From: Verrucomicrobiia bacterium DG1235
Lineage (GTDB): Bacteria > Verrucomicrobiota > Verrucomicrobiia > Opitutales > Opitutaceae
Reading direction: 5' to 3'
Assembly: GCA_000155695.1 (NCBI GenBank)
Contig: DS990592.1
Location: 1,884,556-1,948,555 of the forward strand
Length of the DNA stretch: 64,000 bases
Shown here: positions 19,943-48,780 of the stretch, piece by piece
How positions within the stretch are numbered: position 1 is the stretch's first letter
How the letters are laid out: each line of letters begins with the position of its first letter
Position numbers and translations under genes: made by a program
The notes under the pieces: model-generated
What the model was told of the DNA's origin: nothing
Databases searched by the model: none
What the model saw: the letters and a program-made list of their open reading frames with translations, nothing else

Positions 19943-19951
19943 GATGAGAAG

Positions 19952-24687: not shown

Positions 24688-26817
24688 ATGAACATCCTGA
24701 AAATCCACGACGAAATCGTAGAAAGTTACCGATCCTACATCGAGAGCTTCATCGACATTCATGATGATGACATCCGAGATGAAGTTAGCAATAGGCTTGG
24801 AGATGGCACACTCTGGCCGGAACCTCTCGTCCAGTTCAATCCTGCTTATGAGCGCGCACTTTCTGTCGCGGATCTTGTTAAGGAAAAAACACTCAGCAGC
24901 GAGATGGAGAGCGTTTTCCACCGCTACGAGCTCTACACACATCAGGTGGAAGCCATTCGTCTTGGCGTTCAGCCAAAGAGTTTTGTCGTAACTTCCGGAA
25001 CGGGTTCTGGGAAATCTCTAACTTACATCGGGAGCATCCTAAATAGCCTCTTCAATGAAGGTACGGGAAATGGGATTCGTGCTGTTCTTGTCTATCCCAT
25101 GAATGCCCTCATCAACTCCCAGGAAGAGGAGCTGAAGAAATTCAAGGAGAACTATGAAAAGCACTCGGGTAGGCCATTTCCAATTCGCTTTGAAGCTTTT
25201 ACTGGGCAGACAAAAGCAGATTTGCGCAAAACGATTAAAGAGTCGCCGCCTGATATACTGCTAACCAACTATATGATGCTGGAACTCCTACTGACGCGCT
25301 ATGAAGAGCGTCAGATTAAGGACTCAATAGCAAAGAACCTGAAGTTCCTCGTCTTTGACGAACTACACACCTATCGCGGCAGACAAGGTGCGGATGTGGG
25401 TATGCTCATAAGGCGAATAAAATCGATCCTCAGTCGGCCGCTCACCTGTATCGGTACTTCGGCGACAATGGTCTCAAAAGGATCTTCAGATGACAAAAAG
25501 CAGATCGTCGCAGACTTCGCATCTAAGATATTCGCGGAGCAATTCACTAAGGAGCAAATAATCTCTGAAAAACTAGAACGATCTCTCAATGAGTCTGGCG
25601 AAATCCCTAGCGCTTCAGAGCTCAAGCAAGCAATCTCTCAGGACTTAACCAATTTTAAAGACGAAGATGAACTGCGAAAGCACCCAACTGCAATTTGGTT
25701 GGAGAATGCAGTTGCTCTGAAGGTCAATGAAGCAGACGGCGAACTGAACCGAGCAACCCCAATACCCAAAACTGATATAGCCACCAAGTTAGCTCGTGCA
25801 GCGTCTCTGTGCGATGATTCGATTCCCTCAGTCGCAAAGCATTTGGACGGGCTCTTTCTGGGCATCAACGGTGTCAATCAGGCACTCGTCGCAAAAGGGA
25901 AACGTTACACGCTTCTTCCATTTAGGCTTCATCAGTTCTTTGCGCAGACAGGCTCAGTCTATGCAACCTTGGATGAACCAGGAAATCGCCACCCCACCCT
26001 CCAGCCAGGTCTACACTTCGCTGTCAACGGAGAGCCTGATCGCTTCCTGTTCCCTCACGTCTTTAGCCGAGCATCGGGGATGACTTTCATTTGTGTTTAC
26101 TATGATGAGCACAAAGGCCGTCTACTACCGCGGGAATTCAACGATTCGATGCCAGAGGACGACAATCTTGTTTCAGGCTATATCATTCCAGGGAACGAAG
26201 ATGTTTGGAATCCTGAGACAGATCTAGAATCGCTTCCAAGCTCTTGGACGAGGACGGATCGCACGGGCAAGATGCGTTTCGATCCCAAATATCGCGATAG
26301 AGCACCGCAAAGGATCTATTTCAAGCCGGACGGAAGCTGCTCTGATGACGAGAGTGAAGGTCTGCCGGGTTGGTTCATGCCATGTGAGCCCAAGGGGTTA
26401 CTTTTCGACCCTACTGCTGGTGTTTTCTTCGAGGCAAACACCAGTGAGCGTACGAAGCTCACTACGCTAGGAAACGAGGGCCGAAGCACTTCTACGACCA
26501 TAACATCTTTTCTGACACTCGATTCCCTCAATCGCAACGGATTCCTTCCTCGCGACCAAAAGCTTCTTAGCTTTACGGACAACCGTCAGGACGCAGCTCT
26601 ACAAGCGGGTCACTTCAATGATTTCATTCGGGTCACCTTTATTCGCTCAGCTATAGCAAAAGCTCTCAAATCGAATCCCAACGGCCTCGACTACACAAAA
26701 ATAGGTCCAGCTGTATTGGAGGCTCTTGGCCTGCCAGCAACAGCCTTCGCTAAGAACGTGGTGAATGATGCCCCAACCTTCATTCTCGATGAGATCAAGA
26801 GAGTCTTTTCCGATTGA
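24688..26817 (+). CDS. DUF1998-class defence helicase, N-terminal part (ends at in-frame TGA)
   Basis: 709 residues: the DEAD-type ATPase half of a giant helicase. Visible motifs are TSGTGSGKSL (Walker A, about 105-114), LVYPMNALINSQEE (Ia), DILLTNYMMLE, FDELHTYRGRQGAD (Walker B variant DELH) and GTSATM (III). The segment SFTDNRQDAALQAGHFNDF near residue 635 is typical of helicases related to DrmA/DrmB, DruE and MrfA, just ahead of their second RecA domain. The frame stops at TGA 26815-26817 yet stays open in the same frame from 26818 to 29871. The ATG at 24688 is the first good start. Whether the two parts form one enzyme by readthrough, two subunits, or a broken gene cannot be decided here. 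Confidence 0.8.
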   Translation: MNILKIHDEIVESYRSYIESFIDIHDDDIRDEVSNRLGDGTLWPEPLVQFNPAYERALSVADLVKEKTLSSEMESVFHRYELYTHQVEAIRLGVQPKSFVVTSGTGSGKSLTYIGSILNSLFNEGTGNGIRAVLVYPMNALINSQEEELKKFKENYEKHSGRPFPIRFEAFTGQTKADLRKTIKESPPDILLTNYMMLELLLTRYEERQIKDSIAKNLKFLVFDELHTYRGRQGADVGMLIRRIKSILSRPLTCIGTSATMVSKGSSDDKKQIVADFASKIFAEQFTKEQIISEKLERSLNESGEIPSASELKQAISQDLTNFKDEDELRKHPTAIWLENAVALKVNEADGELNRATPIPKTDIATKLARAASLCDDSIPSVAKHLDGLFLGINGVNQALVAKGKRYTLLPFRLHQFFAQTGSVYATLDEPGNRHPTLQPGLHFAVNGEPDRFLFPHVFSRASGMTFICVYYDEHKGRLLPREFNDSMPEDDNLVSGYIIPGNEDVWNPETDLESLPSSWTRTDRTGKMRFDPKYRDRAPQRIYFKPDGSCSDDESEGLPGWFMPCEPKGLLFDPTAGVFFEANTSERTKLTTLGNEGRSTSTTITSFLTLDSLNRNGFLPRDQKLLSFTDNRQDAALQAGHFNDFIRVTFIRSAIAKALKSNPNGLDYTKIGPAVLEALGLPATAFAKNVVNDAPTFILDEIKRVFSD

Positions 26818-26829
26818 CGGAACGACTAT

Positions 26830-29800
26830 TTGACTTACCAGGCAGTGTACGACCTCCGTCGCGGTGCGGGCACCTTCAAACTCGAAAAATGTGCCCTCCT
26901 AAGTATTGATTATGTCCACCTCAAGGAGACCGTAGATTGGAAGGAAGGATGGAATGATATTCCAGTCATTGCCGGGTTGAACAATGAGGAGCGCTCTGAA
27001 TTCCTCCGCAACATCCTCGACCACTTCCGATTGGAATACGCTGTACACAGTGATGTTCTACTGAAGGAAAGCGTTCTCCAGGAAAATGAGAAAGTCTTCA
27101 GCGACAAACTCCGAGCCGATTGGGCATTTGATGATTTGAAGAACCTTTTCCCCGCTTATTTGAGACGGAAACGCCTGAGCTCACGATCGCGGGGCAAGAG
27201 TAGCTCAATGGTTATCACCAGTGCGCTCGGTAAATACATTCGCCAATTCTTCGCAGAAAAAGCTCCTGAGTTTGCATTCAACCGCGAAAGCTATGACGAA
27301 ATACTGGATAGTCTACTTGCTCTTCTGGAACAAGCGGGGTTCGTCGTAAAGCAAGAGAGGCGCGATGCTGAGGGTCAAGCAACCTATATCTATCAGTTGA
27401 GACTGGACCGGATTATATGGAAACCGGGAGACGGTAAAAAAGTTCAGCGCGATGTAGTAAAGATACGCAGCTATAAAAGCTTTCAGGAGAAACCTAATTT
27501 GTTTTTCAAGCGCATCTACGAGACCGATTTTTCGAAAATAAAAGCGCTACGTGGAGAGGACCACACTGGTCAGTTAAAGAACGAACTACGCATCGACCGA
27601 GAGGAACGCTTCCGAGCTGATTTCTACAAAGAGGAGAATGGAAAGCGAGTTTTGGATAAAGACCGTATTTGGTCAGATTCTATCAGTGCCCTCTTCTGTT
27701 CACCCACGATGGAATTGGGCGTAGACATCAGTGCGTTGAGTGTTGTCCATATGCGTAATGCACCGCCGAACGCTGCAAACTACGCCCAGCGTAGCGGTCG
27801 CGCAGGGCGAAGCGGCCAAGCTGCGCTCGTGATGACCTACTGCTCATCCTACTCGCCACATGACAGAAACTTTTTTGATAACAAAGAGCAACTAGTCGCA
27901 GGTGTCGTTGAAGAGCCAAAGCTAGATTTGATCAACAGAGAGCTGATCGAATCTCATATCCACGCTCTAGTATTCTCTGACATTGGCATTCCAGATGTCA
28001 GAGAGTCTGTCACAGAGCTTTTGGATCCAGATTTCCCTGATTGTCCGTTGCGTCCATCTGTCCGTGAACGCTTAAGCCTCAAGCCCGCAGAAGCACTATC
28101 ATTTAAGACAAGCGTCAAACGTGCGCTGGAGACTCTCTGGCCAAAGCTTGAGCAGGAGACATGGTTTACCGATAGCTGGATTGAACGAATCATACAGGAG
28201 CTGCCAACTCGTCTGGACCGATCCCTAGACCGATGGAGATTCTCGTTCAAGGAGGCCAAGGCGACACTCGACCGGGCAACCAGCGAGATTGCCAATGGTG
28301 TCTACCAGTTAAATAGCGATGAATACAAACGGGCAAAACGACTTCAGGATCAAGCGACCCGACAGCGAGATCTCCTCAAGAATGACATCAGAGGGAACCA
28401 TGAATTAAGTGAGTTCTACGTCTTCCGCTATCTTGCATCAGAGGGATTCCTTCCAGGTTACAACTTCACCCGACTTCCAGTACGAACGTTCGTCTCAGGA
28501 AAGGATGATGTCGGCGAGTACATCTCAAGGCCGCGCTTGATAGCGCTCCGAGAATTCGGCCCGCTCAACGTAATTTATCATAACGGAAACAAGTATCGGA
28601 TCGAACAGGTTGTCTTACCTGAAATCGACTCACACCTCCGAAACATTCGAGTCTGCTCCAAGTCGGGGTTCTGGTTGGATGATTCTTACGAGACGGCGGA
28701 TCTATGCCCCTTCACGGGAATCGACCTAACGGATGGAGATAATCGTGAGAGCTTCGCGGGCTTGCTGGAACTTTCCGAGAGCCGTGCGGAGAAGAAAGAG
28801 TATATCACTTGTGAAGAAGAAGAGCGTCGACGCCTTGGATTTGCCATTGATACATACTTCACTGTTAAACCAGATGAGCTTAGCCGAGTGCGACGGGCCG
28901 AGATAAAGTCGGACGATCAAGTTCTGCTAAACCTGTCATACATTCCTGCGTCGCAACTAATTCAAATCAACAAGCGTGACCGAGCTCATACCGACGATGG
29001 TTTCCCCATCGGTATGAAGACCGGCTTCTGGAAGAACTCAGTTGATCCAGAGGCGAAAGAGGAAATCCGCAAAGTTATGCTCTGGTCGTGGAACACCGCC
29101 GATGCTCTATACATCGAGCCACTGACATCGCTGGCACTCACTCCAGATGCAGTACTTACTTTGATGTATGCTCTCAAGCGTGGCATCGAACGCCTCTTCC
29201 AAATAGAGCCTTCCGAGTTAGGAGTCGCCAAGATGGGTACAACTGAAGAACCTAACATCTTCCTCTACGAATCTAGCGAGGGAAGTTTAGGTATTCTCAG
29301 CCAGATTGTTGAAAATGTGGATACGTTTAAACGCGTCATCGAAGAGGCAAAAGCTGTCTGCCGCTATGAAGAAGATGACTACCTTGAACCAGCATCCTAC
29401 GATGACCTGTTGAGTTACTACAACCAGCCACATCACCTACAAATCAATCGCTTCGATATAAGAGATGCTCTGGACAAGGTACTCACTTGCTCGATCGAAA
29501 GAAGAGACACCGTAACAGACAGCAGTTACCAAAACCAGTACGAACGCCTGCTGCGTCAGATGGACTCAAACTCATCCACGGAAAAGCAATTCCTCGACTA
29601 TCTCTACAAACACAAGCTCCGCTTGCCGGACTCCGCCCAGGAAGAGGTCGATGGTCTCTACGTGAAACCAGATTTTTTCTACTCACCCGACACGTGGGTC
29701 TTTTGTGACGGCACACCGCATGACCGCCCAGAAATCAGAGAAGACGACGCCAAGAAGCGGGCAGCTATCAGAGAACGCGGTGATGAAGTAGTCGTTTACT

Positions 29801-29871
29801 ATTATAAAAACTCATTGGATGACCTCATTCAGAGATACCCGGACATTTTTACCAAGGCCGTAGATGAATAA
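26830..29871 (+). CDS. DUF1998-class defence helicase, C-terminal part with Vsr-like tail
   Basis: In the same frame as the preceding part, four codons after its TGA; the only early start is TTG at 26830, with no clear ribosome site. The second RecA domain is present (FCSPTMELGVDIS; NAANYAQRSGRAGRSGQAA, about 300-330). The DUF1998/MZB region follows (NIFLYESSEGSLGILSQIV; PASYDDLLSYYNQPHH), but the zinc-ligand Cys positions seen in most relatives are Ser and Asp. The last 100 residues (YVKPDFFYSP, VFCDGTPHD, KKRAAIRERGDEVVVYYYK) look like a Vsr/DUF559-type nuclease domain. The combined product would be about 1728 residues. The stop overlaps the SNF2 start by 8 nt. Confidence 0.75.
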   Translation: MTYQAVYDLRRGAGTFKLEKCALLSIDYVHLKETVDWKEGWNDIPVIAGLNNEERSEFLRNILDHFRLEYAVHSDVLLKESVLQENEKVFSDKLRADWAFDDLKNLFPAYLRRKRLSSRSRGKSSSMVITSALGKYIRQFFAEKAPEFAFNRESYDEILDSLLALLEQAGFVVKQERRDAEGQATYIYQLRLDRIIWKPGDGKKVQRDVVKIRSYKSFQEKPNLFFKRIYETDFSKIKALRGEDHTGQLKNELRIDREERFRADFYKEENGKRVLDKDRIWSDSISALFCSPTMELGVDISALSVVHMRNAPPNAANYAQRSGRAGRSGQAALVMTYCSSYSPHDRNFFDNKEQLVAGVVEEPKLDLINRELIESHIHALVFSDIGIPDVRESVTELLDPDFPDCPLRPSVRERLSLKPAEALSFKTSVKRALETLWPKLEQETWFTDSWIERIIQELPTRLDRSLDRWRFSFKEAKATLDRATSEIANGVYQLNSDEYKRAKRLQDQATRQRDLLKNDIRGNHELSEFYVFRYLASEGFLPGYNFTRLPVRTFVSGKDDVGEYISRPRLIALREFGPLNVIYHNGNKYRIEQVVLPEIDSHLRNIRVCSKSGFWLDDSYETADLCPFTGIDLTDGDNRESFAGLLELSESRAEKKEYITCEEEERRRLGFAIDTYFTVKPDELSRVRRAEIKSDDQVLLNLSYIPASQLIQINKRDRAHTDDGFPIGMKTGFWKNSVDPEAKEEIRKVMLWSWNTADALYIEPLTSLALTPDAVLTLMYALKRGIERLFQIEPSELGVAKMGTTEEPNIFLYESSEGSLGILSQIVENVDTFKRVIEEAKAVCRYEEDDYLEPASYDDLLSYYNQPHHLQINRFDIRDALDKVLTCSIERRDTVTDSSYQNQYERLLRQMDSNSSTEKQFLDYLYKHKLRLPDSAQEEVDGLYVKPDFFYSPDTWVFCDGTPHDRPEIREDDAKKRAAIRERGDEVVVYYYKNSLDDLIQRYPDIFTKAVDE

Positions 29872-32743
29872 TTCTGCTTCAAACTTCCAACCAGGAACTC
29901 TTGTAGCCCTGCGGGGCCGAGATTGGGTCGTACAAGCTTCTCCTGATCCTGAGCTTCTCGTTCTTCAGCCTTTGGGAGGTAGTGACGAAGAAACTACAGG
30001 AATCTTCCTTCCATCAGCCACAGAGGACGACCATCCCAAACCCGCGAAATTCTCGAAACCAACGGTAGAAGACTTGGGTAACTTCGCTCATTCGCGAATC
30101 CTGTACAACGCAGCCCGCCTTTCATTTCGCAATGGTGCCGGTCCATTCCGCTGCTTGGCGAAACTCTCTTTCCGCCCGAGAAGCTACCAAATGGTACCCC
30201 TTGTCATGGCACTTCGCCAGTCAACCACTCGTCTGCTAGTGGCGGACGACGTTGGTATAGGTAAAACAATCGAAGCCCTACTCATAATAGCAGAGCTCCT
30301 GGAGCGAAAAGTGATCGAGCGCTTCGCGGTAGTCTGCCTTCCGCATCTATGCGATCAATGGCAGCAGGAAATTCAGGATAAGATCGGCTTAAATGCTGTT
30401 GTCATCCGCTCCAATACCCAGGCCAGATTGGATCGTGAAATCCATGGCGATGTTTCCGTATACCAACACTATCCCTTTCAGATCATCTCTATCGACTACA
30501 TAAAGTCGGAGCAACGGAGACAGCTTTTCATCTCCGAATGTCCGGAGCTATTGGTTGTCGACGAGGCGCATACCTGCACTTTGCCTCAAGGCGCCTCAAA
30601 GGGGCAGCAGCAGCGTTATGCTTTATTACGAGATCTCATCGACTCCCGCGGAGAGGATCAGCATCTCGTCATGCTCACCGCGACGCCACACAGTGGAAAG
30701 CCCGAGGAGTTCGGGTCCCTACTAGGCCTGGTAGACGACTCGTTTCAGACCATGGATATCGCCACAGCAGGCCAGAAGGAGAGAAAACGCTTGGCAGCTC
30801 ACTTTGTTCAGCGTCGTAGAGCAGACGTAGAGAAGTGGATGAACCAGAAAACGCCTTTTCCTGAGCGAGACTCTGGAGAATTCGATTATAATCTCTCCGC
30901 CGAATACGCTACCTTCTTTGAAGGTATTTTTGATTTCGCACGCGGTCTTGTCAGCGGCAAAACGGATGATCGCCGCAAGCGAGTTCATTACTGGACGGCT
31001 CTCGGCCTACTTCGTGGAGTCATGTCCAGTCCAGCAGCAGGAGTAAGTATGCTGCGCAATCGTCGATCCAAGTTGAGCGGGGAAGAACTCATCGAAGATG
31101 AAGGAGGAGATTTGGTTCACGACTCCCCCGAAGGCTTCGAGTCAGACCTCTCTCCGAATGAACTCGTCGAAGCAACGGAATGGTCGGAATACGAGTTACG
31201 TAAACTACGTCAGTTCGAGCGCGAACTTACAGACCTACAAGGGGTCGAAAATGACTACAAACTGGAAGCGGCACACATGGTCATAACTGACTGGCTGGAA
31301 AACGGATACAGCCCTGTTGTATTCTGCCGCTACATTCCAACCGCCAATTACGTCGGCGAACAGCTGAAGCCCATCCTAGAAAAAGCCTTTAAGGATATAA
31401 CCGTTCAGGTTGTCACTTCCGAAGACCCGGATGAGCTTCGCAGGGAGCGTATTGAAGCGATGGGTTCCAGCAAGCGACGCGTGCTCATAGCTACGGACTG
31501 CTTGTCCGAGGGAATCAATCTTCACGCTCACTTTAGTGCGGTATTGCACTATGACCTTCCTTGGAACCCCAACCGCCTTGAACAACGCGAAGGCCGCGTA
31601 GACCGTTTCGGCCAGACGCGAGACGAGGTCAAAGCCTACCTTCTCTTTTCCAAAGACAACCCGGTCGATGGCGTGGTTCTTAACGTCATTCTGCGTAAAG
31701 TTCGCGAAATTAAGCGAGCCACAGGCATTAACGTTCCCTTCCCTGAGGATAGTCGCGGCGTCATCGACGCGATTACTCAATCACTGCTCTTGGAAGACCA
31801 AAACAAGGTCACCTTCCGCAAGGTAGACAACCAGATGCAGATCGACTTTGAGGAATTCGATGCGGCCAAAAAGATCGATCTAGAGGTCTCGGACAAATTC
31901 AAGCGCTCCGAGGAAAACGTGAAAGCCTCACGTTCAGTCTTCACGCAATACGGAATCAAGGCCGAAGAGATCGAGCCAGACCTACGCGAGAACGACCTAG
32001 CGATCGGCAACCCCGAAGCTGTGCAAGACTTCATTATCGAAGCGGTGACGAGCCTCTACGGAGCTCAGATTGAGCCTATCAAGGATCGAAACCGAGAGCT
32101 TAAAGGCTTCCGCCTCTACCTCACAAATCTACCAAGAATTTCCCGGAGCGTTCTTCCTGATCCAGATAAGAAGGATGCCGTTCTGATCAGTTTTGAGTCC
32201 CCCACTCCCGAAGGTTTCCATTACTTCGGTCGCAATCATCCTTTCGTAGAACAGATATGCCAACGCGTCCTTGCCGACACCATGGATCGTAATCCACAAG
32301 GTGCGGCACGTGCAGCCGTATTTCGATCCAGTCGAGTAAATCGTATGACGACTCTGCTCCTGTTCCGCGTCCGTAATGTCATCGAGGAAAAGAATAAACG
32401 AGGCCCCAAGTTGATCGCTGAGGAGATGCTACTTTGGGGTTACCGAGGCAGCCCAGAGCAAGCCGACCACTTAGAACTCGACGAAGCACAGCAGCTACTC
32501 AAGGAAGCGACCGTAGACGGGGACCTCAGCGATGCCCGTCGACAGCGCGAACTCACTCAACACATCGACCAATTAGAAACCCTTCGTACACGTTTTGATC
32601 AACTTGCCGAACAACGCTCTCAACACTTAGTCGAGGCCCACGAACGCTTCTCACGCTTGGTCGACAAGAAGAAATTCCAAGTCGTTTATCCCGTACTCCC
32701 GATGGATGTACTGGGCGTTTATATCCTGATCCCTGCGAAATAG
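29864..32743 (+). CDS. SNF2-family helicase, DrmD-like
   Basis: 959 residues. The N-terminus (PGTLVALRGRDWVVQASPD, LLVLQPLGGSDEE) and the P-loop ADDVGIGKTIEA (about 126-137), with DEAH box VVDEAHT (about 230), match the SNF2 helicase DrmD of class 1 DISARM. The helicase C-terminal half shows HYDLPWNPNRLEQREGRVDR (about 562-581), the motif V/VI region. The long helical tail ends with LVYPVLPM-type beta strands. SNF2 enzymes move along or remodel duplex DNA; in DISARM the helicases act with the methylase. Here the start overlaps the upstream stop by eight bases and the next gene starts two bases after the stop. Family call is strong; DISARM membership is inference. Confidence 0.85.
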   Translation: MNNSASNFQPGTLVALRGRDWVVQASPDPELLVLQPLGGSDEETTGIFLPSATEDDHPKPAKFSKPTVEDLGNFAHSRILYNAARLSFRNGAGPFRCLAKLSFRPRSYQMVPLVMALRQSTTRLLVADDVGIGKTIEALLIIAELLERKVIERFAVVCLPHLCDQWQQEIQDKIGLNAVVIRSNTQARLDREIHGDVSVYQHYPFQIISIDYIKSEQRRQLFISECPELLVVDEAHTCTLPQGASKGQQQRYALLRDLIDSRGEDQHLVMLTATPHSGKPEEFGSLLGLVDDSFQTMDIATAGQKERKRLAAHFVQRRRADVEKWMNQKTPFPERDSGEFDYNLSAEYATFFEGIFDFARGLVSGKTDDRRKRVHYWTALGLLRGVMSSPAAGVSMLRNRRSKLSGEELIEDEGGDLVHDSPEGFESDLSPNELVEATEWSEYELRKLRQFERELTDLQGVENDYKLEAAHMVITDWLENGYSPVVFCRYIPTANYVGEQLKPILEKAFKDITVQVVTSEDPDELRRERIEAMGSSKRRVLIATDCLSEGINLHAHFSAVLHYDLPWNPNRLEQREGRVDRFGQTRDEVKAYLLFSKDNPVDGVVLNVILRKVREIKRATGINVPFPEDSRGVIDAITQSLLLEDQNKVTFRKVDNQMQIDFEEFDAAKKIDLEVSDKFKRSEENVKASRSVFTQYGIKAEEIEPDLRENDLAIGNPEAVQDFIIEAVTSLYGAQIEPIKDRNRELKGFRLYLTNLPRISRSVLPDPDKKDAVLISFESPTPEGFHYFGRNHPFVEQICQRVLADTMDRNPQGAARAAVFRSSRVNRMTTLLLFRVRNVIEEKNKRGPKLIAEEMLLWGYRGSPEQADHLELDEAQQLLKEATVDGDLSDARRQRELTQHIDQLETLRTRFDQLAEQRSQHLVEAHERFSRLVDKKKFQVVYPVLPMDVLGVYILIPAK

Positions 32744-32744
32744 C

Positions 32745-33785: not shown

Positions 33786-33799
33786 CAATCAACATTTAC

Positions 33800-34570
33800 A
33801 TGAGACTACGAACGGCCAGAAGGCACTTCACCGAAGATATAAAACGATCAAAGGCAATCTTTGAGCATGCTAGACATGTACCCAACAAATCCTTACAGGG
33901 CGATCTTCTACGTAGCTCCTTTATGTTTTCAGTAGGTGCGCTGGACGCTTTTTTCTGCGATGCATTCGGTGACTTAGTTTCTAGAACTCTGTCTGCCTTA
34001 GAAAAGGAACCTATCGCAACTATAATGGACAACTTCGAAAACTTGAGTGTTCCAGCAGTAGTGTTGTTAAAAAACGCTCCTACAGATGGATGGCGCTGGC
34101 GCATGGCAGCACGAGCTATGATTGAAAAGGAGAACGTTCTTTCGATCACTCAAATCAAGAAGCTGTTTAATCGCTTTTTCGAGGACTCCGAGAAACTATT
34201 TTGCGATAACCGTCTAGAAGGCTGGATGACCCATGGGCGTGCTACAAACCGTGTTTTTGGAATCGCACGTTCAGACTTTTTACACCTCTCGGGAACAGAT
34301 CGTATTTCGGCAATAAAAAATGGAAACAAACAACTCAATTCCCGATACAAAGTCTTATTTCAACGACGCCATGACTGTATTCACAACTGTGATAGGCCCA
34401 AGGTCGCACCTCAAGCAATAGCCCGCATTGGTTCAATCAAGAATATGATCAACGACATAGAGTTTCTTGTAGATCGCTGTCATGACGAGCTCTACTCGGA
34501 ATTCCCAAGGTTTTTAAATCGCTGCGGGTTTAGTGCAGTAACACGCAACCAAGTGGGTGCCTCAAGATGA
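33800..34570 (+). CDS. HEPN-domain protein, putative ribonuclease
   Basis: 256 residues, mostly helical. The motif RRHDCIHN (about residues 193-200) contains the HEPN signature R-x4-H (Arg, four residues, His), in the context seen in MAE_28990/MAE_18760-type HEPN proteins, which are RNases in antiviral and toxin systems. The preceding helix RSSFMFSVGALDAFFCDAF is typical of the first HEPN helix. No antitoxin-like partner lies next to it; instead the 3' end overlaps the methyltransferase start by 4 nt (ATGA), so the two are translationally coupled. RNA cleavage is inferred from the motif only. Confidence 0.6.
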   Translation: MRLRTARRHFTEDIKRSKAIFEHARHVPNKSLQGDLLRSSFMFSVGALDAFFCDAFGDLVSRTLSALEKEPIATIMDNFENLSVPAVVLLKNAPTDGWRWRMAARAMIEKENVLSITQIKKLFNRFFEDSEKLFCDNRLEGWMTHGRATNRVFGIARSDFLHLSGTDRISAIKNGNKQLNSRYKVLFQRRHDCIHNCDRPKVAPQAIARIGSIKNMINDIEFLVDRCHDELYSEFPRFLNRCGFSAVTRNQVGASR

Positions 34571-40391: not shown

Positions 40392-42517
40392 AAATCTCCA
40401 CTATCTTAGAAAAGATCGACGAACATCAGCTCTTCATCCCCGCATTCCAGCGTGAATACGTATGGAAACGTGAAGACGCAAAGCAACTCATCGACTCCCT
40501 GATTAAGGAATACCCAACTGGCACAATGCTAACTTGGGAGACCGCGAACCCACCAGAACTCAAAGGGGACCATAAATACAACGCCAATCAAGGAGCAGTT
40601 AAACTACTACTAGATGGCCAGCAACGCATCACGACTCTCTACATGCTGATAAATGGAGTGATTCCGCAGTACTACACAGCTCCGGAGATCATGAATGACA
40701 CGCGTGGCCTCTATGTGAACGTCGAGACGCTTGAGTTGTCCTACTACATGAAGACGAAAATGGAGAACAACGTGGCTTGGCAGAATATCACCGAGATATT
40801 CAAAGGCAAAGTCAGTGCGTTTGACCTACAGTCAGCTTACGCATCTTCAGGGCGGCAACTCACCATGGATGAGCTCAAGCAGCTGAATGAAAACATCAAT
40901 GCAATCCAACGAATCCGAGAACGCGAATTCCCAGAGCAGACTATTCCCGTTAAGGCCAGCATTCGGGAGGCAATAGACATATTCTACAAGGTGAATGCAA
41001 GCGGCGTCGCACTGACAGATGCTGAGCTCGCATTGGCCCAAATCTCCGGCTATTGGCCCGAGGCTCGTGATCTTTTCAAAGCCAAGCTCGCGTTGCTAAA
41101 GGCGGATGGCTTCGTATTCAAATTAGACTTCATCATCTACGTGCTTATCGGCTGTCTCCACCACCAGGGCTCTGAGATGAAGAAGCTTCATGATCCTGAA
41201 AATAAGGAACCGCTATTGAAAGCATGGGAACTACTCGATAAGCAAGTCCTCGACTACGTTGTAAACCTTCTGCGCTCAAATGCGTACGTGGATCATACGC
41301 ACGAAATCAACTCGATCTACGCTCTTGTGCCCATCATCGTCTACTGCTTCGACAAGGATGGAGGTCACCTTACAGACATGGAAATCCGTAAGGTCGTAAA
41401 GTGGTTCTTCTATTCACAGATTCGAACGCGATACGTTAGCCAGTTGCCCCAGAAACTAGACCGCGACCTCCGCACACTTCAGGAATCGGAAAGCCCATTT
41501 GATGATCTTCTTCAAGTGATCGCCGACGAGCGCCGCCTCGAAATCACTCCCGAGGAAATGGAGGGACGGGCAATTGGACATCCGTTGTTCAGCATGATGC
41601 GCTGGTATTTGAAAAGCCGTGGTGCAGTGTGCTTAACGACCGGTGTTAATTTGCGGCGCAATATGGGTGAAAAGTACCAGCTAGAGCTAGACCACATCTT
41701 CCCCTACTCACGCCTCAAATCAGTTGGGTATGGCAAGGGTAATCGTGTCAAATATGCCTTAGCTCAAGAGTTTACTAATCGGGCTATCCTGACTCAGGTT
41801 GCAAATAGGAAAAAGTCCGCAGCTCCTGCAAAAAACTACTTATCTTCTGTGGTAGAAAAGTTCCCAAAATCACTCACCCTCCAATGTATCCCTGAAGATG
41901 ATACACTTTGGGATTTGGAAAACTATGAAAGTTTCCTAGGTGAACGCCGAAGAATACTCTCCCGAGCATTAAACGAGTTTCTCGAAGGCATCACAACTAC
42001 TGACGAAACGGAAACCCCGATAACGATCGAAGAAATGATCGGCGAGGGTGAAAGCGACGAATTGGAATTCAAGTCTACGCTCCGCTGGGATCTCCGGGAA
42101 GGTAAGGTGAACAAAAAACTAGAAGAGGTGATTCAGAAAACAGTGGCTGCATTCGCCAACTCGGACGGAGGAACGCTTCTTATTGGTGTGGCCGACGACG
42201 GAGAGATCCTCGGACTCGACAATGACTACGCATCTTTGGGCGATGCCGATAAAGATAAATTTGAGATGCACCTCAGAAACGTCATCTCGAATTCCTTTAA
42301 AAAGCCCTTCAGTGCCTCACGTGTAAAAATCCGCTTTCCTGTTATCGAAGGGAAGGAAATCTGCCACATGGAAATTCAGCAACACCATGAGCCTCTTGTG
42401 ATGTGCGTCACGGACAAGAATGGCCGAAAGTCGGAGAAATTCTTCGTCCGCAACGGGAATGCCTCTCACGAGATTCCCATGAGCGAAATGAACGCCTACA
42501 CAAAAGAGCGGTTCTAG
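40388..42517 (+). CDS. DUF262-DUF1524 nuclease fused to AlbA_2 (Schlafen-type) domain
   Basis: 709 residues. DUF262 at the start (FIPAFQREYVWKREDAKQLI; LLDGQQRITTLYML), as in GmrSD-type type IV restriction enzymes, uses a ParB-like NTP-binding fold. DUF1524 follows with the HNH-like ELDHIFPYSRL (about 432-442) and NRAILTQVANRKKSA. From about 555 comes an AlbA_2 domain (ESDELEFKSTLRWD; AAFANSDGGTLLIGVADDGEILGL), the domain shared with Schlafen-type proteins. GmrSD cuts modified DNA; here a Schlafen-like nucleic-acid domain is added. The 4-nt overlap with the GHKL gene suggests coupled synthesis. Confidence 0.75.
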   Translation: MKISTILEKIDEHQLFIPAFQREYVWKREDAKQLIDSLIKEYPTGTMLTWETANPPELKGDHKYNANQGAVKLLLDGQQRITTLYMLINGVIPQYYTAPEIMNDTRGLYVNVETLELSYYMKTKMENNVAWQNITEIFKGKVSAFDLQSAYASSGRQLTMDELKQLNENINAIQRIREREFPEQTIPVKASIREAIDIFYKVNASGVALTDAELALAQISGYWPEARDLFKAKLALLKADGFVFKLDFIIYVLIGCLHHQGSEMKKLHDPENKEPLLKAWELLDKQVLDYVVNLLRSNAYVDHTHEINSIYALVPIIVYCFDKDGGHLTDMEIRKVVKWFFYSQIRTRYVSQLPQKLDRDLRTLQESESPFDDLLQVIADERRLEITPEEMEGRAIGHPLFSMMRWYLKSRGAVCLTTGVNLRRNMGEKYQLELDHIFPYSRLKSVGYGKGNRVKYALAQEFTNRAILTQVANRKKSAAPAKNYLSSVVEKFPKSLTLQCIPEDDTLWDLENYESFLGERRRILSRALNEFLEGITTTDETETPITIEEMIGEGESDELEFKSTLRWDLREGKVNKKLEEVIQKTVAAFANSDGGTLLIGVADDGEILGLDNDYASLGDADKDKFEMHLRNVISNSFKKPFSASRVKIRFPVIEGKEICHMEIQQHHEPLVMCVTDKNGRKSEKFFVRNGNASHEIPMSEMNAYTKERF

Positions 42518-42609
42518 CAAAAATTGAAGAGTAGCGAAGGCGTTAAACTGTGGCTCCACTATTACGCCGTTTCGGCTGCATCACTTTCCGACTCAAGTCA
42601 TAGCTCGAA

Positions 42610-45600
42610 ATGAAAAAAGAGTTCATAGCTGTTCTTAAGGAAATTCAGGAAAAGGTACTCCTTGAGGAAAAGCGACAGAGTGAAAGTGCTCAGTACCGCA
42701 ACTCGGTAAGACAGCTCTTCGAAACAGTTGCCTCAAGGGTTCAACACGTAGTCTCGGAATTACTACAAAATGCAGACGATGCAGGAGCCACTTGTGCACG
42801 TATAGAAATTGAAGAGGACAATTTCGTATTCAGGCATGACGGCGCAGATTTTGAACCCGAACAACTGGAGGCCCTTTGTTCTTTTGCAGTATCAAGTAAG
42901 CACACCATCAAGACCACTGGGTTTAGAGGAATTGGCTTCAAATCTGCGTTTAGCATCGGGGACTCTGTTTACTTTATAACCCCGAGCTATCAAATCAGGT
43001 TTGATCGCGACCGCTTTACTTACCCAAACGAACACCCAGAAACTTCCTCTGATCCTGGATGGCCGATAAAAATGAGCGTTCAAATCAACTTGGGGGCGAG
43101 ACGGGAGCTGGAATCCAGCCTGCAGGAATGGAAACGTTCACCTTGTTCACTGCTCTTCTTTCAAAACCTAAAGAATGGGATCTTTATTAACGGAGAGCGA
43201 CTAGCCGTTGAACGAGCGCCTGATGAAGGCAGTCAGTTTCAAATCAAACGGAACAATGGACCCGTTCCCGTGTGGTCGGGACGGAAGATCTCGCGAGACA
43301 ACATCCACTTGCCACCTAACGCTTGTCTCGAAATCACCAAGCTCAGGGGGACAGAAACCAGGAGTGTATCCACAAGTCTAGACATCCTTATCAGCGATAA
43401 CGAACAGGGAAGAATTTACTCGATACTTCCTACCTCGGGCGAAAAACGTCTTTCCGTTCCCTTTGCTGTCAACGGAGCATTTGTCCTAACTCCTGATCGA
43501 GATGGCATTAAAAGCCCCAGCCAATCACCGACCAACTCCTTTCTATTCGAAGAGATTGGACGAACTCTCGTACAGAATCTTCTTGGAACACTGGATTCGT
43601 CTGAGAGCTTTGATCACGATCTAGTAGAAGCTTACGAGCTCCTCCCTTTTGAAGGAGAATTCGAGGACCCCGACGCCGAAACTGAAGCATCGAGAAGAAT
43701 CTTTGAAGCTTGTTGCGAGGGTTTAGAGGGAAAGGATTGGATCGTAACATTCGATGGTCGATGGGTCGACCCTCGCAACGAAGAGCTCATTGCATTACCA
43801 GGATTGCTCACAAAGGTCTGGCCGGGCTCCGTGCTGGCTGAGCTCTTTTGCCCAACAAAAACCATCATCCACCCCGCAACACCAAAAACAGTCATCGCTC
43901 ATCTCAAGGAGAAGGGGCTCATTGTAAATGCCACCAATAAGGATTTGCTCGACGCCCTTACCTACCAGGAACCTCCCCGCCCAGAAACCTACGAGCAGCT
44001 CTTAAATCTTTGGACATGGGCGCGGAATGCTGTAGTCACGAATAGCTCATATCCGAATCTAGAAATAAGTAAGCGGAGTGGTCTCAAAATAATCCCGGCC
44101 GAAGGCGAATGGTATCTCAAGTCACTCAATGACGTGTATCGTTACGACGATTCAACTGCAGCCATCTTCAGAGAAAACGAAATATCCCTACTTTCTTTAG
44201 GTATCTATAGGTTCGATACGACATACATCCCCGAGGACAAACTCAAGCAAAGCAATCCACCTCAACGATGGTGGTTACTGATGGATTCCTCTCATGTTGG
44301 TATAACGAAAAACAGCTCGACCAAATCTGTTCTCGATAGGACCTTTCGAGAACTAGACAACGAATCGGAGGAATTCGAAGTCAGAATAGAAAAGCTTTGG
44401 GAAATCTACTGGAAACTCGAACTTGGACTCCCAGATTCCTTTCCGATCCGAAGACAAAACAGAGAGAGTCTATCATGGAAAAAACGCCAAGTTTTGCTCG
44501 ATTCAAAGCTAAACCCATTAAATCGAGAGCTAATCCCAGATGAGTTCATTCAAGAACACGCTATCGCAGATGAGTGGATTCCCAACGAGGAACAAGAGCT
44601 GAAGGCGTTCGAATCTTGGCTCTATGAAAATCAAATTTCATCCAAGTTTCCTAGGCCTCAAACGGTTCCTGAAGCAAGTAGTCCCTGGTGCATAAACTCA
44701 TTCCTATCGGATTTCGGTAGTTCTATCGAAGAAAACAGAAACGGTTCATACCTCAAACAGGACACTATTTGGGATCCGAAATTAATAAGTCATTGGAAAG
44801 CTAGAGCCGAATCACAACCCAACGTGTATTTTCGGGTTCTGCACGAAGTTGCTGTACACCACCAAGTCTTAATCTCCAAATTTCCTCACGTCACCTTTTA
44901 CCGTTCTTACGGGAGCTCTATACACTCAATAAGACCAAGTATTCCAGTATCCGCTTCTTGGTTACGCTATTTCGAAAAAGAGATTTGTTTGCCCGACCAG
45001 CATGGTAGGCTCGCTCACCCTAGAAGGCTCTACCTTAGCAATGCTCAAACACTACCGATGCTCTCTGCTGGTGAGCTAGCAGTAGATGCCGATTGCCAAA
45101 AGCAACTTGGTACAACACTTCTGTCTGCCCTTGGCTGCAGAACCGACTTGCCGAGTCTCCCAGAGATAGGAGCACTGATCACAAAAAACACCCAAAGTCG
45201 ACAACCCTCCATTGAACGGTCGCTACACCTAATCTATGCAGCAAATAAGCAATTTGACTCCAGCGAAGAAGATCAGTCTGACTTCTTAAGTGTTCTTAAA
45301 AATTCAGCATCAATTCCCTCCGATCTGGGCACACTCGAAAATCCCGAAAATCTCGTTCAGGAAGCGAGCGAAGAGGATGAGGCAATCGCCATCCACAATT
45401 CGCTCAAAGGGACGGCTGTAGCAAGGGCACTCGCAATCCCACAAACTGCTGACCGACAAGCACAGATTGACTGGATAAGGGGACTCCCCACTGATTCACC
45501 ATTGGAGCTAAACGATCTACGAAGACTTCAAAAAATCCTTAAGCAACCTTCGTCGATTAGCGAAGACCTCTGGGTAAAGCAGAGAAGGTGGATCTCGCTC

Positions 45601-47061
45601 AGTGGTACGCTTCGATCGATCGACGACCTGAAGTATTGTCACTCGGATTCCACGACGCTCCCGAAAGCAAAGATAAGCTGCGATTCGACAAAATGCGATA
45701 CAGCAGACTTTACAATCATATCAGGGGTCCCTGTTGAAATGCGAGCCAGCAAACCGGAACTAGTGGAACAATTAGTGCCTTCACTCAGTATAAAATCGAA
45801 TGCCAAACGCATTTCCAGGGATTGGTTAACTGCAATAGCCGAGCTCGTATGGACCGAAGCCTTGGTGGTCGAAGAGAAGCGTGAAGAGTTTGAAACTTTA
45901 GCCCAACGACTTAGGGATGCAAATCTGATCCTTGATCCCACTTTATCGAAAAGCTTCACCCTAGAGGGACGTGAAATCGCAAGTGGGATAACAACCAAGG
46001 CAGCCTGGCCAAACAACGACCTAGTCCTGCATACTGGCGATCCTGATGAGATATGCGAATTAGCGCCAGAAATATCCCGCTGTATTCGCGCTGACTTCCA
46101 TCAGAACTCCAAGCTAAGCCCTAAAATAGAATCCTGGATAGAGCAACCAACCAAACGTATCCAAAAACTGGGTCTAAAGGCACTGGGACTATCAGAAATT
46201 CGGCATTTCCAGAATTCTGGAGACCAAGATGTGCCGATTGAAGAGCCTCCGACAGGAACGACGAGTCTCCCCGCCAACGGGGAGACCACGGATATTGAAA
46301 AACGAAATCAGACTCAACAAACGACAGTAGAGGCAGAAAGAGAGTACTCGCCCTCTACTCATCACCAAGCCCCTTACCCAGTAGCCACTGAACCTCAACC
46401 AGCCTCCACTATACGCGAGAGAGCTGAGCCTGGAGGTAATTCTTCAAACCCATCGAAGGGCCAGGGTAGACACAGATTTCTGTCCTACATCGAACCAGCT
46501 GAAACACGAGAACAGCGAGAAAGACGTCGGTCTAAAGCGAAGGAAGCGGGCGACGCAGCCGAACAATTCGTTGTAAAATGGGAGATCGATCAAGGACACG
46601 TCCCAGAACTCTTTGGCGGGAACAATCCCGGCTATGATATCGAGTCAAGAGTGGAAGACTCTCTACGTTATATCGAAGTAAAAAGCGTAACAGGAAACTG
46701 GGGAGGCGAAGGAGTAAAACTATCAAACACTCAATTCGAATATGCCCGTCGCCTCAGAGAAGACTATTGGCTCTATGTGGTTGAATTCGCAGGAACGCCT
46801 TCTCCAGTCGTGCACAGAATTCAAGACCCGTACGGGCACATCTCGAATTTCTGCATTGATCGTAACTGGAAAGAAATTGCGGGCGAATCAAATTCACAAC
46901 CGCAAGTTTTCGTTCCTTCTATCGGTCAGGACGCGATTTACGAGGATCGTAAGGTTGTAGTCGAAAATGTTGAGAAGAGAGGAGCTTTCTTCATCATATC
47001 GTTCACGCTCGATGGTCAGAAGTACAAAAAAATGAATACGCTTTTTACCCCATTAGATTAG
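42610..47061 (+). CDS. Sacsin-like GHKL ATPase with C-terminal DUF3883 nuclease-like domain
   Basis: 1483 residues. The N-terminus is a sacsin-type ATP-binding domain: VVSELLQNADDAGAT (about 49-63) and TTGFRGIGFKSAFSIGD (about 103-119). After a long low-conservation helical middle, the last 180 residues hold DUF3883: KEAGDAAEQFVVKWE, NPGYDIES, LRYIEVKSVTG (about 1358-1368; E-x-K), a PD-(D/E)XK-like fold. Such sacsin-DUF3883 proteins occur in defence islands. The gene follows its neighbour by 92 nt and ends exactly where the NERD-UvrD gene begins (no spacer), suggesting a fixed pair. The region before DUF3883 (about 1220-1290) is low-complexity and Pro/Gln/Thr-rich. Confidence 0.75.
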   Translation: MKKEFIAVLKEIQEKVLLEEKRQSESAQYRNSVRQLFETVASRVQHVVSELLQNADDAGATCARIEIEEDNFVFRHDGADFEPEQLEALCSFAVSSKHTIKTTGFRGIGFKSAFSIGDSVYFITPSYQIRFDRDRFTYPNEHPETSSDPGWPIKMSVQINLGARRELESSLQEWKRSPCSLLFFQNLKNGIFINGERLAVERAPDEGSQFQIKRNNGPVPVWSGRKISRDNIHLPPNACLEITKLRGTETRSVSTSLDILISDNEQGRIYSILPTSGEKRLSVPFAVNGAFVLTPDRDGIKSPSQSPTNSFLFEEIGRTLVQNLLGTLDSSESFDHDLVEAYELLPFEGEFEDPDAETEASRRIFEACCEGLEGKDWIVTFDGRWVDPRNEELIALPGLLTKVWPGSVLAELFCPTKTIIHPATPKTVIAHLKEKGLIVNATNKDLLDALTYQEPPRPETYEQLLNLWTWARNAVVTNSSYPNLEISKRSGLKIIPAEGEWYLKSLNDVYRYDDSTAAIFRENEISLLSLGIYRFDTTYIPEDKLKQSNPPQRWWLLMDSSHVGITKNSSTKSVLDRTFRELDNESEEFEVRIEKLWEIYWKLELGLPDSFPIRRQNRESLSWKKRQVLLDSKLNPLNRELIPDEFIQEHAIADEWIPNEEQELKAFESWLYENQISSKFPRPQTVPEASSPWCINSFLSDFGSSIEENRNGSYLKQDTIWDPKLISHWKARAESQPNVYFRVLHEVAVHHQVLISKFPHVTFYRSYGSSIHSIRPSIPVSASWLRYFEKEICLPDQHGRLAHPRRLYLSNAQTLPMLSAGELAVDADCQKQLGTTLLSALGCRTDLPSLPEIGALITKNTQSRQPSIERSLHLIYAANKQFDSSEEDQSDFLSVLKNSASIPSDLGTLENPENLVQEASEEDEAIAIHNSLKGTAVARALAIPQTADRQAQIDWIRGLPTDSPLELNDLRRLQKILKQPSSISEDLWVKQRRWISLSGTLRSIDDLKYCHSDSTTLPKAKISCDSTKCDTADFTIISGVPVEMRASKPELVEQLVPSLSIKSNAKRISRDWLTAIAELVWTEALVVEEKREEFETLAQRLRDANLILDPTLSKSFTLEGREIASGITTKAAWPNNDLVLHTGDPDEICELAPEISRCIRADFHQNSKLSPKIESWIEQPTKRIQKLGLKALGLSEIRHFQNSGDQDVPIEEPPTGTTSLPANGETTDIEKRNQTQQTTVEAEREYSPSTHHQAPYPVATEPQPASTIRERAEPGGNSSNPSKGQGRHRFLSYIEPAETREQRERRRSKAKEAGDAAEQFVVKWEIDQGHVPELFGGNNPGYDIESRVEDSLRYIEVKSVTGNWGGEGVKLSNTQFEYARRLREDYWLYVVEFAGTPSPVVHRIQDPYGHISNFCIDRNWKEIAGESNSQPQVFVPSIGQDAIYEDRKVVVENVEKRGAFFIISFTLDGQKYKKMNTLFTPLD

Positions 47062-48780
47062 ATGGCGAGAATGATTCCAGAATATGGGCACAGGCTTTTA
47101 GAATCAGTCGTATCCAAAGCCGAACGCAAAGTCTACGAAAAGCTTAGAAATGGGCTTTCAGATAGCTTTACGGTGCTCCATTCCGTGAGCTGGATTTCTC
47201 ACAATTCAAAAGACTTCGCCCAAGACGGAGAAGCCGACTTCCTCATCGCTCACCCCAAGCTTGGCATTCTCATCATCGAAGTAAAAGGAGGTGGAATCTC
47301 GTTCGATGCACATACTGGTAGTTGGTTCAGCACAGACCGACTAGGAACGAAACACCTGATCAAAAACCCATTCTCGCAAGCAGCGAATGCAAAACACCAG
47401 GTGCTTTCAGCCCTGAGGTCTCATAAAGACTGGTCACGAATCGTCCTGGGCCATGTTTGCATAGGGCACGCCGTTTGGTTTCCTGACATCGCGGACTCAG
47501 CGCCAATCAAAGCACCAGACAGACCACAAGAACTAATTTTGACCCACGAGGACTTTGACTTTGTTGAATCTTCAATTCTTGGAGCGTTCTCATATTCTGG
47601 CTCTCAATCATCAGCCCATCATGTATTAGGCAATTACGGGATCGAATTAATTGAGTCACTCTTCGCACGTGACTTCACAGTGCTACCCACATCCGCCGCA
47701 AGAATAGCAGACGAGGAGCAGCAACGAATACAACTAACCGAAATCCAGTTTCGGTCGCTCAAACTACTCGGATCCAGACGTCGAGTTGGAATTACCGGAG
47801 GCGCTGGGACGGGGAAAACCCTCTTGGCACTTGAGAAAGCTCACGATCTCGCAAAACGTGGTTTCAAAACTCTACTACTCGCCTACAATCGACCGTTGGG
47901 AGACCATCTATCAAACGCGATCGACAAGAATCTTCCCATAACAGCAACGAGCTTTCACGCCTTCTGTACTCGCTTACTGAAACAGCACGAAGGAATATAC
48001 TTGGATCGAGCTCGGAAAGACTTCCCCAACTCCGATTATTGGAACGTCGTTCTACCAGCAGCTATCTGCTATTTACTAGAGTATGTGAAGATTCAATTCG
48101 ACGCAATACTTGTTGATGAGGCTCAGGACTTTGCTGAGGAATTTTGGTTTCCTCTCGAACTAATGCTATCAGACAGCGAGAGATCTCCCCTCTATCTATT
48201 CTACGACTCGAATCAACAGCTCTACCGCAAAACTTCGGCATTTCCCATCAATCCTGAGGAAGAGTTCGAGCTTACAGAAAACTGTAGAAACACTGCAGCA
48301 ATACATGAGGTAATGTCTCCACTTTTCTCAGGCGGAGAACTAAACCCATCCTCGATCCCTGGAGTCGCAGTGAATTGGCAATTTGCCAGCAACACCAAGG
48401 AACAATCCAAAGCGATTCGCACCCTAGTTGATCGATACCTTTCAGGGGAAGGATTGAAGAGTGCAGACATAGTGGTACTTATCGCCGACCGATCGAGGCT
48501 CAAAGAATACACGGATGCATTATCAAAGGAAAACCTTCCCAGAGGTTTTCGCTTTTTGGATACACCAACGATACTGCCAAACAAAATCCGAGTCCTGAGT
48601 GCTGCAAAGTTCAAAGGTCTAGAAGCACCCATAGTCATCGTTTGTGGACTGGATTCACTCGATCCAATCATTCGCGATCACCGGATGAACCTATACGTGG
48701 CACTCAGTCGCCCCAAAAATGTACTCCACATTGTCGGTTCTGAAAAAGCAATCAATGCCCTCAAAAGCCTAAGTACATAG
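47062..48780 (+). CDS. NERD-domain UvrD-like helicase
   Basis: 572 residues, starting on the base after the preceding stop. Residues 15-115 are a NERD domain (ADFLIAHPKLGILIIEVKGG, the D...ExK nuclease-related core). A superfamily 1 helicase follows: Walker A GGAGTGKTLLAL (about 246-257), Walker B ILVDEAQDFAEEF (about 351), LTENCRNTAAI (motif IV region), LSAAKFKGLEAPIVIVCG (motif V) and LYVALSRPKN (motif VI). It resembles RecB-like nuclease-helicases of defence systems, with the nuclease fused at the N-terminus. The pairing with the sacsin-DUF3883 protein is suggested by the zero-base junction. Confidence 0.85.
   Translation: MARMIPEYGHRLLESVVSKAERKVYEKLRNGLSDSFTVLHSVSWISHNSKDFAQDGEADFLIAHPKLGILIIEVKGGGISFDAHTGSWFSTDRLGTKHLIKNPFSQAANAKHQVLSALRSHKDWSRIVLGHVCIGHAVWFPDIADSAPIKAPDRPQELILTHEDFDFVESSILGAFSYSGSQSSAHHVLGNYGIELIESLFARDFTVLPTSAARIADEEQQRIQLTEIQFRSLKLLGSRRRVGITGGAGTGKTLLALEKAHDLAKRGFKTLLLAYNRPLGDHLSNAIDKNLPITATSFHAFCTRLLKQHEGIYLDRARKDFPNSDYWNVVLPAAICYLLEYVKIQFDAILVDEAQDFAEEFWFPLELMLSDSERSPLYLFYDSNQQLYRKTSAFPINPEEEFELTENCRNTAAIHEVMSPLFSGGELNPSSIPGVAVNWQFASNTKEQSKAIRTLVDRYLSGEGLKSADIVVLIADRSRLKEYTDALSKENLPRGFRFLDTPTILPNKIRVLSAAKFKGLEAPIVIVCGLDSLDPIIRDHRMNLYVALSRPKNVLHIVGSEKAINALKSLST

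Follow-up and report, generated by a model that had tools for sequence, protein, structure and literature searches.

The stretch of DNA analysed here, called the window in the following, comprises 64,000 nt of the 5.78 Mb genome of Verrucomicrobiia bacterium DG1235 (GCA_000155695.1, contig DS990592.1, positions 1,884,556-1,948,555, forward strand; C6 in our contig numbering). Its + strand is filled between 24688 and 48780 by ten open reading frames (ORFs), g1 to g10, which we believe, with good confidence, to represent an operon of ARMADA type I gene order from a zinc-free subclade, with exchangeable cargo between its helicase and methylase genes and with four solo defence genes downstream of it. 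The nearest named relatives at this locus belong to an Opitutia and an Opitutales metagenome-assembled genome, both of the Verrucomicrobiota. As an earlier reading of the sequence, the first-pass annotation, had pointed out, the genes are tightly packed. According to the ORF table, g2 and g3 overlap by 8 nt, g5/g6 and g7/g8 by 4 nt each, and g9 and g10 abut. Gaps occur between g6 and g7 (65 nt), between g8 and g9 (92 nt) and between g10 and the next ORF (211 nt); a terminator scan found no + strand terminator-like site in the first two. In 38200-49100, the scan counted 21 terminator-like sites, where shuffled sequences averaged 11.8 (standard deviation 4.0); in 24200-38500 they numbered 16 against 15.4, and promoter-like sites stayed below the shuffled counts in both regions (3 against 10.0 and 7 against 13.1). 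These scans carried no weight in our reading of the locus.

The first two ORFs encode a YprA/DruE-like helicase of the ArmC type. Its N-terminal part, g1 (24688-26817, 709 codons; DEAD 85 bits), contains RecA1 (Walker A GTGSGKS, DELH, TSAT), a helical insert and the start of RecA2. The C-terminal part, g2 (26830-29871; Helicase_C 34 bits, MZB 25 bits), contains the rest of RecA2 with motifs V and VI, a canopy with a zinc-less DUF1998/MZB domain and, from a motif alignment, a C-terminal Vsr-like PD-(D/E)xK motif, KPDFFY...VFCDGTPHD. Both parts share one frame and are separated solely by a TGA at 26815-26817, within a disturbed stretch at about 26812-26880. In 22 aligned relatives, picked for an ORF of more than 1,500 residues, the counterpart of g1 plus g2 is one ORF of 1,511-1,806 residues, and the stop is absent from all 22. 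What had first been counted as two genes is, judged by its sequence, one YprA gene broken by a stop. A conserved two-gene design was rejected as an explanation of the split, since the relatives hold both parts in one ORF. The joined protein is 78% identical to that of L027 and 74% to that of L028 (L numbers are our labels for related loci).

Gene g3 (29864-32743) encodes a RapA/BrxHII-like SNF2 helicase of the ArmA type, with SNF2-rel_dom and Helicase_C domains (Pfam). It scored 556 bits for DpdE and 281 bits for DrmD in PADLOC, and a PDB search retrieved RapA (E=1.9e-17). Under the NCBIfam cut-offs it qualifies as neither DrmD (308, 610 needed) nor DpdE (165, 500 needed). Gene g6 (34567-38346) encodes a PglX/DrmMI-like N6-adenine methylase of the ArmB type (Eco57I 82.7 bits; DrmMI 722 bits) and carries an MmeI-like target recognition domain (MmeI_TRD 59 bits).

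The YprA gene, g3 and g6 appear to form a core in the order YprA-like helicase, RapA/BrxHII-like helicase, PglX-like methylase. This is the type I order of ARMADA, a system named in 2025 (Bell et al. 2025, PMC12458937; here and below, statements on this paper refer to its accessible part), so that the first-pass annotation, which knew of no named system of such composition, has been overtaken for the core. In this source, ARMADA is defined by clade and gene set, and its YprA is closest to that of Druantia and ends in a Vsr-like motif. In agreement with it, PADLOC scored g1 at 149.5 bits for DruE and 14.2 for DrmA, g2 at 132.7 and 36.7; the intact YprA of L027 gave 273 and 40 bits. An AlphaFold2 model of g1 (predicted local distance difference test, pLDDT, 83) had MrfA/YprA as its best Foldseek match. 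In VIA-align, Lhr came first (Z 26.8, root-mean-square deviation 3.2, 248 aligned) and MrfA second (Z 25.5, root-mean-square deviation 2.0, 221 aligned). Motif alignments of the relatives further placed a conserved PDFxY...FCDGTPHD motif at the end of the YprA protein.

Related loci were gathered with g3 from named genomes (31 loci), from genomes of the class, 21 of 286 of which gave a match, the own one included, and from plasmids (68 records, five of them read). YprA accompanied g3 in 54 of 57 loci, and in the other three (L030, L055, L112) the sequence starts at g3. The methylase g6 was found in 45 of the 57, the others being mostly cut by contig ends. Conservation of gene order across genomes, a check named in the first-pass annotation, was seen for YprA, g3 and g6; for g4, g5 and g7-g10 as members of the set it was not. 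Hosts of the core were found in Verrucomicrobiota, Lentisphaerota, Chlorobiota, Planctomycetota, Pseudomonadota, Bacteroidota, Acidobacteriota and Synergistota. The order YprA-g3-g6 was kept in most relatives, annotated plasmids included, and reversed in one cyanobacterium, which matches a published cyanobacterial case (PMC12458937). In the YprA tree, the window's clade stood apart from the type II proteins of L113 and L114. At 1e-60, none of seven other genomes of the same genus had a copy of g2, and 57 related genomes searched for the DruE family gave one match (G319, a locus outside the tree); the own genome, with its split gene, gave none at this threshold. On plasmid MP1 of D. radiodurans R1, a YprA helicase, a RapA-like helicase and a methylase annotated in two pieces follow one another in an ARMADA-type order (L101, 2875-14371).

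The YprA proteins differed sharply in their cysteines. We compared 47 of them, from the window and from 46 relatives with a long ORF (at least 1,400 residues; L041, L048, L050 and L052 were left out); plasmid loci L113-L118 are not part of the junction census described below. As a proxy for zinc sites, beside which other metal sites are possible, CxxC motifs were counted: the window and 26 relatives had none (25 rows) or one (L032, L051), and the other 20 had 4-9. The DUF1998 motif followed the same division. Where readable, it was always C...CY.CLLSY.NQ in the CxxC-rich proteins (11 of 20) and always A(S/T/N)Y.DLLSY.NQ in the zinc-free ones (26 of 27, L063 being unreadable). A putative beta-barrel stretch before RecA2 contained CxxC in 18 of the 20 (not in L104 and L106) and in none of the 27. 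On a tree of 46 of these rows (L118, like L113, was left out), the CxxC difference maps as a single change with support of 100, and none of 500 shuffles gave as low a number. Long branches lead to L113, L114, L056, L116, L115 and L107 and, inside the zinc-free clade, to L044 and L039. The clade of the window's YprA seems, on these alignments, to have lost its zinc-binding sites. The DUF1998 cluster is described as characteristic of the whole YprA family and lost in Dpd, and CxxC modules as an observed architecture of ARMADA, BRIGADE, TALON and Druantia YprAs (PMC12458937); a loss inside ARMADA is not mentioned in the accessible part of that paper.

Between the core helicase and methylase genes of the window lie two further ones. 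The first, g4 (32745-33785), encodes a Mrr-type restriction endonuclease (Mrr_cat 42.6 bits); of its proposed PUA-like/Mrr architecture the Mrr half was recovered at 43 bits, and before residue 207 Pfam gave only a sub-threshold match, so that the PUA-like domain was not confirmed. The second, g5 (33800-34570), a HEPN protein in the first-pass annotation, probably encodes a HEPN ribonuclease, with a HEPN_RiboL-PSP match of 24.4 bits under a cut-off of 28.4 and a stretch RRHDCIHN, which we take to be the HEPN motif R-x4-H. PDB profile searches with g4 and g5 returned no useful match. Among 226 genomes of the class, the own genome alone gave a match to either gene. On plasmids of Acinetobacter (two) and Pseudomonas (one), g4 has relatives with 35-38% identity annotated as 'restriction endonuclease', and no ARMADA set surrounds them in the two of the three regions that were read. 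A search of plasmids with g5 gave no match; a 41% paralogue lies elsewhere in the same genome, outside any recognisable ARMADA locus.

The junction that holds g4 and g5 varied among the relatives. The census started from 57 loci, of which two are duplicates (L058 is the L027 contig, L064 the L040 contig) and 12 of the remaining 55 were unmeasurable, leaving 43; the window is not among these, and the near-identical Chlorobiaceae loci L031, L034 and L047 were kept as separate rows without insert. In 25 loci, g3 and g6 lie within 90 nt of each other, and in 18 more than 150 nt apart. Sixteen of these 18 inserts hold an ORF of at least 100 residues; L043 and L062 are without a long ORF. A YhcG/DUF1016 nuclease occupied the slot in four loci (L027 and L112 by Pfam, L060 and L063 by BLAST to L027) and an AbiE-like nucleotidyltransferase in three (strong in L035, weak in L029 with 16.8 bits, by homology to L029 only in L051). 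Fic proteins were found in two, L065 and L044, the latter with a PDDEXK_2 protein. Single loci had an annotated antitoxin-VapC pair (L103), a HEPN_Swt1-SNF2 protein with a sacsin-like protein (L036), an AlbA_2 protein with a STAND-like ATPase (L040) and a DUF6998 protein (L059). The ORFs of L028 (PADLOC) and L096 (Pfam) had no match, and that of L110 was not compared. Among 17 slot proteins compared with those of the window, there was no homologue of g4 or g5. The varied contents, with no g4- or g5-like protein among the 17 compared, lead us to read the window's Mrr and HEPN-like pair as one more filling. A distance of more than 150 nt between YprA and g3 occurred in 9 of 49 loci, mostly, it seems, due to an unaligned YprA end; as a second slot, this junction may at best hold an insert in L046 and L108.

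BREX and BR/Hma systems have already been described with auxiliary nucleases in or beside their core loci (PMC12839542, accessible part); for ARMADA, no such statement was seen in the literature searched or in the accessible part of PMC12458937. A bolder version of our reading, which we think unlikely, holds that a major branch of ARMADA type I, with a helicase of about 1,720 residues, shed all its zinc modules in one step, and that type I operons serve as a chassis whose junction is a dedicated slot for varied toxins and nucleases, co-expressed with the core as a second and suicidal layer of defence. Two loci, L036 (12838-19547) and L095 (7242-14965), combine a sacsin/g9-like GHKL protein with a helicase of 1,180-1,194 residues. 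This helicase is SNF2 by Pfam in L036 and matches the second helicase half of g3 in L095. The pair, once located inside the ARMADA slot (L036), is possibly a two-gene defence module.

Downstream of the methylase follow four genes that resemble single-gene defences. Gene g7 (38412-40391) encodes a GHKL ATPase like the BbrUII/HgiDII restriction enzymes (HATPase_c_3 62 bits; 110 bits against model NF050001, cut-off 550). Gene g8 (40388-42517) encodes a GmrSD-type (DUF262)-AlbA_2 fusion similar to HEC-05 (148 bits), with GmrSD_N (111 bits) and SLFN_AlbA_2 (72 bits). The product of g9 (42610-47061) is a sacsin-type GHKL ATPase (70 bits) with C-terminal NOV_C (51 bits), similar to TmtA (207 bits), presumably Tiamat. 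That of g10 (47062-48780) fuses a NERD nuclease (44 bits) to a UvrD helicase (32 bits) and is RTasNERD-Hel-like (231 bits). Pfam, PADLOC and NCBIfam recovered most domains named in the first-pass annotation. The NERD-UvrD fusion was among them. Of its two GHKL ATPase-nuclease fusions, the ATPase was seen in both g7 and g9 and NOV_C in g9; a nuclease domain in g7 was not confirmed beyond the sub-cut-off resemblance to the BbrUII/HgiDII model. In its DUF262-DUF1524-AlbA_2 protein, both ends of g8 were recovered and the middle gave only a sub-threshold HNH match.

At the thresholds applied, matches among the 286 class genomes, the own one included, numbered 3 for g7, 12 for g8, 2 for g9 and 5 for g10. 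Most of those for g8 were partial or distant. Two close ones (80% and 74%) lie away from ARMADA, one beside an HsdR-type and another GmrSD gene, the other, in G114, beside metabolic genes. In G114, ARMADA is on a different contig, where a weaker g8-like protein (26%, L092) follows the methylase by about 4 kb; in L039, a g8-like protein of 22% identity stands directly after g6. GmrSD-type proteins may thus recur near ARMADA, which does not extend to this gene set. In the stretches examined around the relatives' loci, no close relative of g7-g10 was seen beside the core. Being rare, with relatives elsewhere, these four genes look like separable single-gene defences adjoining the core, which is why we take 24688-48780 to be an ARMADA operon with a series of solo defences behind it. 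In L027, the closest relative, the region downstream of ARMADA (19374-22310) contains an oligonucleotide cyclase gene (418 bits) and another gene that is weakly LmuB-like (43 bits), so that the downstream side of ARMADA is variable as well.

To its left the island has methylase genes and one for a TrwC-type relaxase, to its right metabolic genes. The relaxase-helicase (16623-19535, +) lies with DNA methylases and DUF3987 proteins and possibly is part or remnant of a mobile element. Further left, the - strand (9351-15065) encodes a protein of 1,904 residues that starts with a Cap4-like nuclease part and includes a NACHT/STAND-like ATPase, probably one more stand-alone defence gene. DUF2779 proteins are encoded at 7414-9249 (-) and, 211 nt after g10, at 48992-50482 (+), the latter with a weak Cas4-like N-terminal match (33 bits).

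How far do the data support the assignment to ARMADA, and what else could the locus be? Compared with published type I, the window has the same kinds of genes, their order and the Vsr-like motif at the YprA end; it differs in the near absence of CxxC from its clade, the lack of the DUF1998 cysteine cluster, the two cargo genes and the in-frame stop (PMC12458937). Several points weigh against the assignment. The CxxC beta-barrel described for ARMADA YprAs (PMC12458937) and the four-cysteine DUF1998 cluster are missing from the window's YprA. A PDB profile search of the canopy-nuclease region did not retrieve Vsr. The helical insert after RecA1, published as a BrxA-like mark of the lineage (PMC12458937), is present with a pLDDT of 92, and BrxA was not among its structural matches, an absence that we did not count as evidence against a BrxA-like insert. 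The YprA tree, of 46 rows, is of a quick kind, with long branches and no published type I reference sequence. Because g3 served to collect the relatives, the sample is tilted towards the kin of g3, and the YprA comparison was restricted to long ORFs. The stop in YprA, finally, argues against a working core in DG1235. Since the CxxC architecture is lacking while ARMADA is defined by clade and gene set, we regard the locus as an ARMADA variant, not a plain member. Type II systems, represented by an E. coli (L113) and an Allomeiothermus plasmid (L114), have a homologous YprA and methylase, L114 also a BrxHII-like helicase, but their methylase precedes YprA, an extra UvrD/GajB-like helicase follows it and their YprA has 5-9 CxxC, against none in the window. 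The NERD-UvrD gene g10 is separated from g6 by three genes and need not be equivalent to that helicase.

The class 1 DISARM signature seen in the first-pass annotation captured a related defence locus and missed its identity. It drew on a DrmD-like helicase and a DrmMI-like methylase, both also scored as such in PADLOC, and a class 1 DISARM minus drmC would account for these two. We nevertheless hold it to be most improbable: YprA scores as DruE, not DrmA, its helicase and DUF1998 parts are one gene in the relatives whereas DISARM has separate DrmA and DrmB, and the break between g1 and g2 is a stop inside RecA2. Moreover, g3 stays below the NCBIfam DrmD cut-off (308 of 610), and no phospholipase D (PLD) or DrmC match is listed for the ten proteins, long lists being given to the best 25; a DrmC-like gene had not been seen in the first-pass annotation either. 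The listed matches likewise hold no DruH, the partner of DruE in Druantia type III, and of Dpd genes only DpdE-, DpdF- and DpdJ-like helicases, with no DpdA/7-deazaguanine insertion pathway. That all ten genes form one large multi-component system is suggested by their common strand, the little or no spacing, the 4-nt overlap of g7/g8, the abutting g9/g10 and the GmrSD-family proteins near ARMADA in L039 and L092. This idea is already largely refuted, and we consider it very unlikely: among 226 class genomes g4 and g5 were confined to the own one, among 286 g7-g10 were found in few, the close relatives of g8 have HsdR-type and metabolic neighbours, and close relatives of g7-g10 were not seen beside the core in the stretches examined. 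These six genes thus occur apart, which counts against the single set of the first-pass annotation for them and not for the core. BREX and BR (Hma) systems carry exchangeable PD-(D/E)xK, HNH/GmrSD, HEPN and Schlafen effectors in or beside their cores (PMC12839542, accessible part); in the window, by contrast, the host is ARMADA and the slot the helicase-methylase junction. The TmtA, HEC-05, RTasNERD-Hel and BbrUII-like families have homologues in g9, g8, g10 and g7, which are here single genes adjoining the ARMADA core.

The in-frame TGA means that the core may be switched off, unless there is read-through or a sequence error, and the activity of the window's ARMADA copy is uncertain on its sequence. 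Near the stop, the window is 12 nt longer than L027 and L028; about 17 codons on, it is 6 nt shorter, inside a motif common to most relatives, DLRR-WR--LPNLE. The site lies within RecA2, between the FTDNRQ and TMELGVDI/QRSGRAGR motifs. Two explanations bear on the state of the core and leave its identity untouched. A true inactivation of the YprA gene, after which only cargo and solo genes would still act, we hold to be quite possible, if short of an even chance. The position of the TGA in the RecA2 fold and the altered conserved motif so close to it would fit, as would damaged or shortened YprA copies elsewhere: in L041 the gene lies in three frames, in L044 its last part is split off into a small ORF of its own, and most of the motor is missing from three Azohydromonas loci. 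Yet both lesions preserve the frame, the remainder of the gene shows no further disruption (77% amino-acid identity to L027 before the stop, 80% after it), and neither g3 nor g6 is interrupted. That the stop is an error of sequencing or assembly in an intact operon is a somewhat more tentative explanation, to which the two anomalies within about 70 nt, in a window whose other large ORFs are open, lend some weight; g3 and g6 also align along their length with L027 and L028, though such observations fall short of a systematic test of the assembly. Frameshifts are a frequent result of consensus errors, whereas both changes keep the frame. No ratio of nonsynonymous to synonymous substitution rates (dN/dS) could be obtained on either side of the stop because synonymous sites are saturated (proportion of synonymous differences, pS, 0.80-0.89). 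The stop may be a recent mutation, a tolerated one or a consensus error.

Some other YprA copies are incomplete because the available sequence stops within them, as in L056 and L031, and several loci are truncated by contig ends. In Azohydromonas, a shortened YprA stands beside g3 and g6 (L048 7683-9989, L050 8163-9977, L052 7692-9989), with the canopy and nuclease end kept and most of the helicase motor gone. About 800 residues are missing in L048 and L052, and no N-terminal part was found in L050. Upstream of the short gene lies an ORF of 669-727 residues; the two tested had no PADLOC match.

In E. coli, ARMADA II confers direct, non-abortive protection for which motor and methylase motifs across all four proteins are needed, the phage assays having been made with type II systems (PMC12458937). 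By analogy, we infer for the locus in the window that the g6 methylase would mark host sites, and that unmarked incoming DNA would be engaged by the g3 and YprA helicases and cut or blocked by the Vsr-like end of YprA without killing the cell. From their family membership, the nested Mrr enzyme g4 would attack phage DNA that escapes the core by being modified, and g5, the HEPN protein, would serve as a backup RNase.

While ARMADA itself is known, we have not seen its zinc-free clade or its cargo slot stated in the accessible part of PMC12458937. The zinc-free clade bears on whether DNA recognition requires zinc sites in the first place. If the junction were a dedicated slot of the kind set out above, a phage that inactivates the core would release a second, suicidal layer. 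All in all, a recurrent slot would make ARMADA a further host, beside BREX and BR/Hma, for exchangeable backup effectors.

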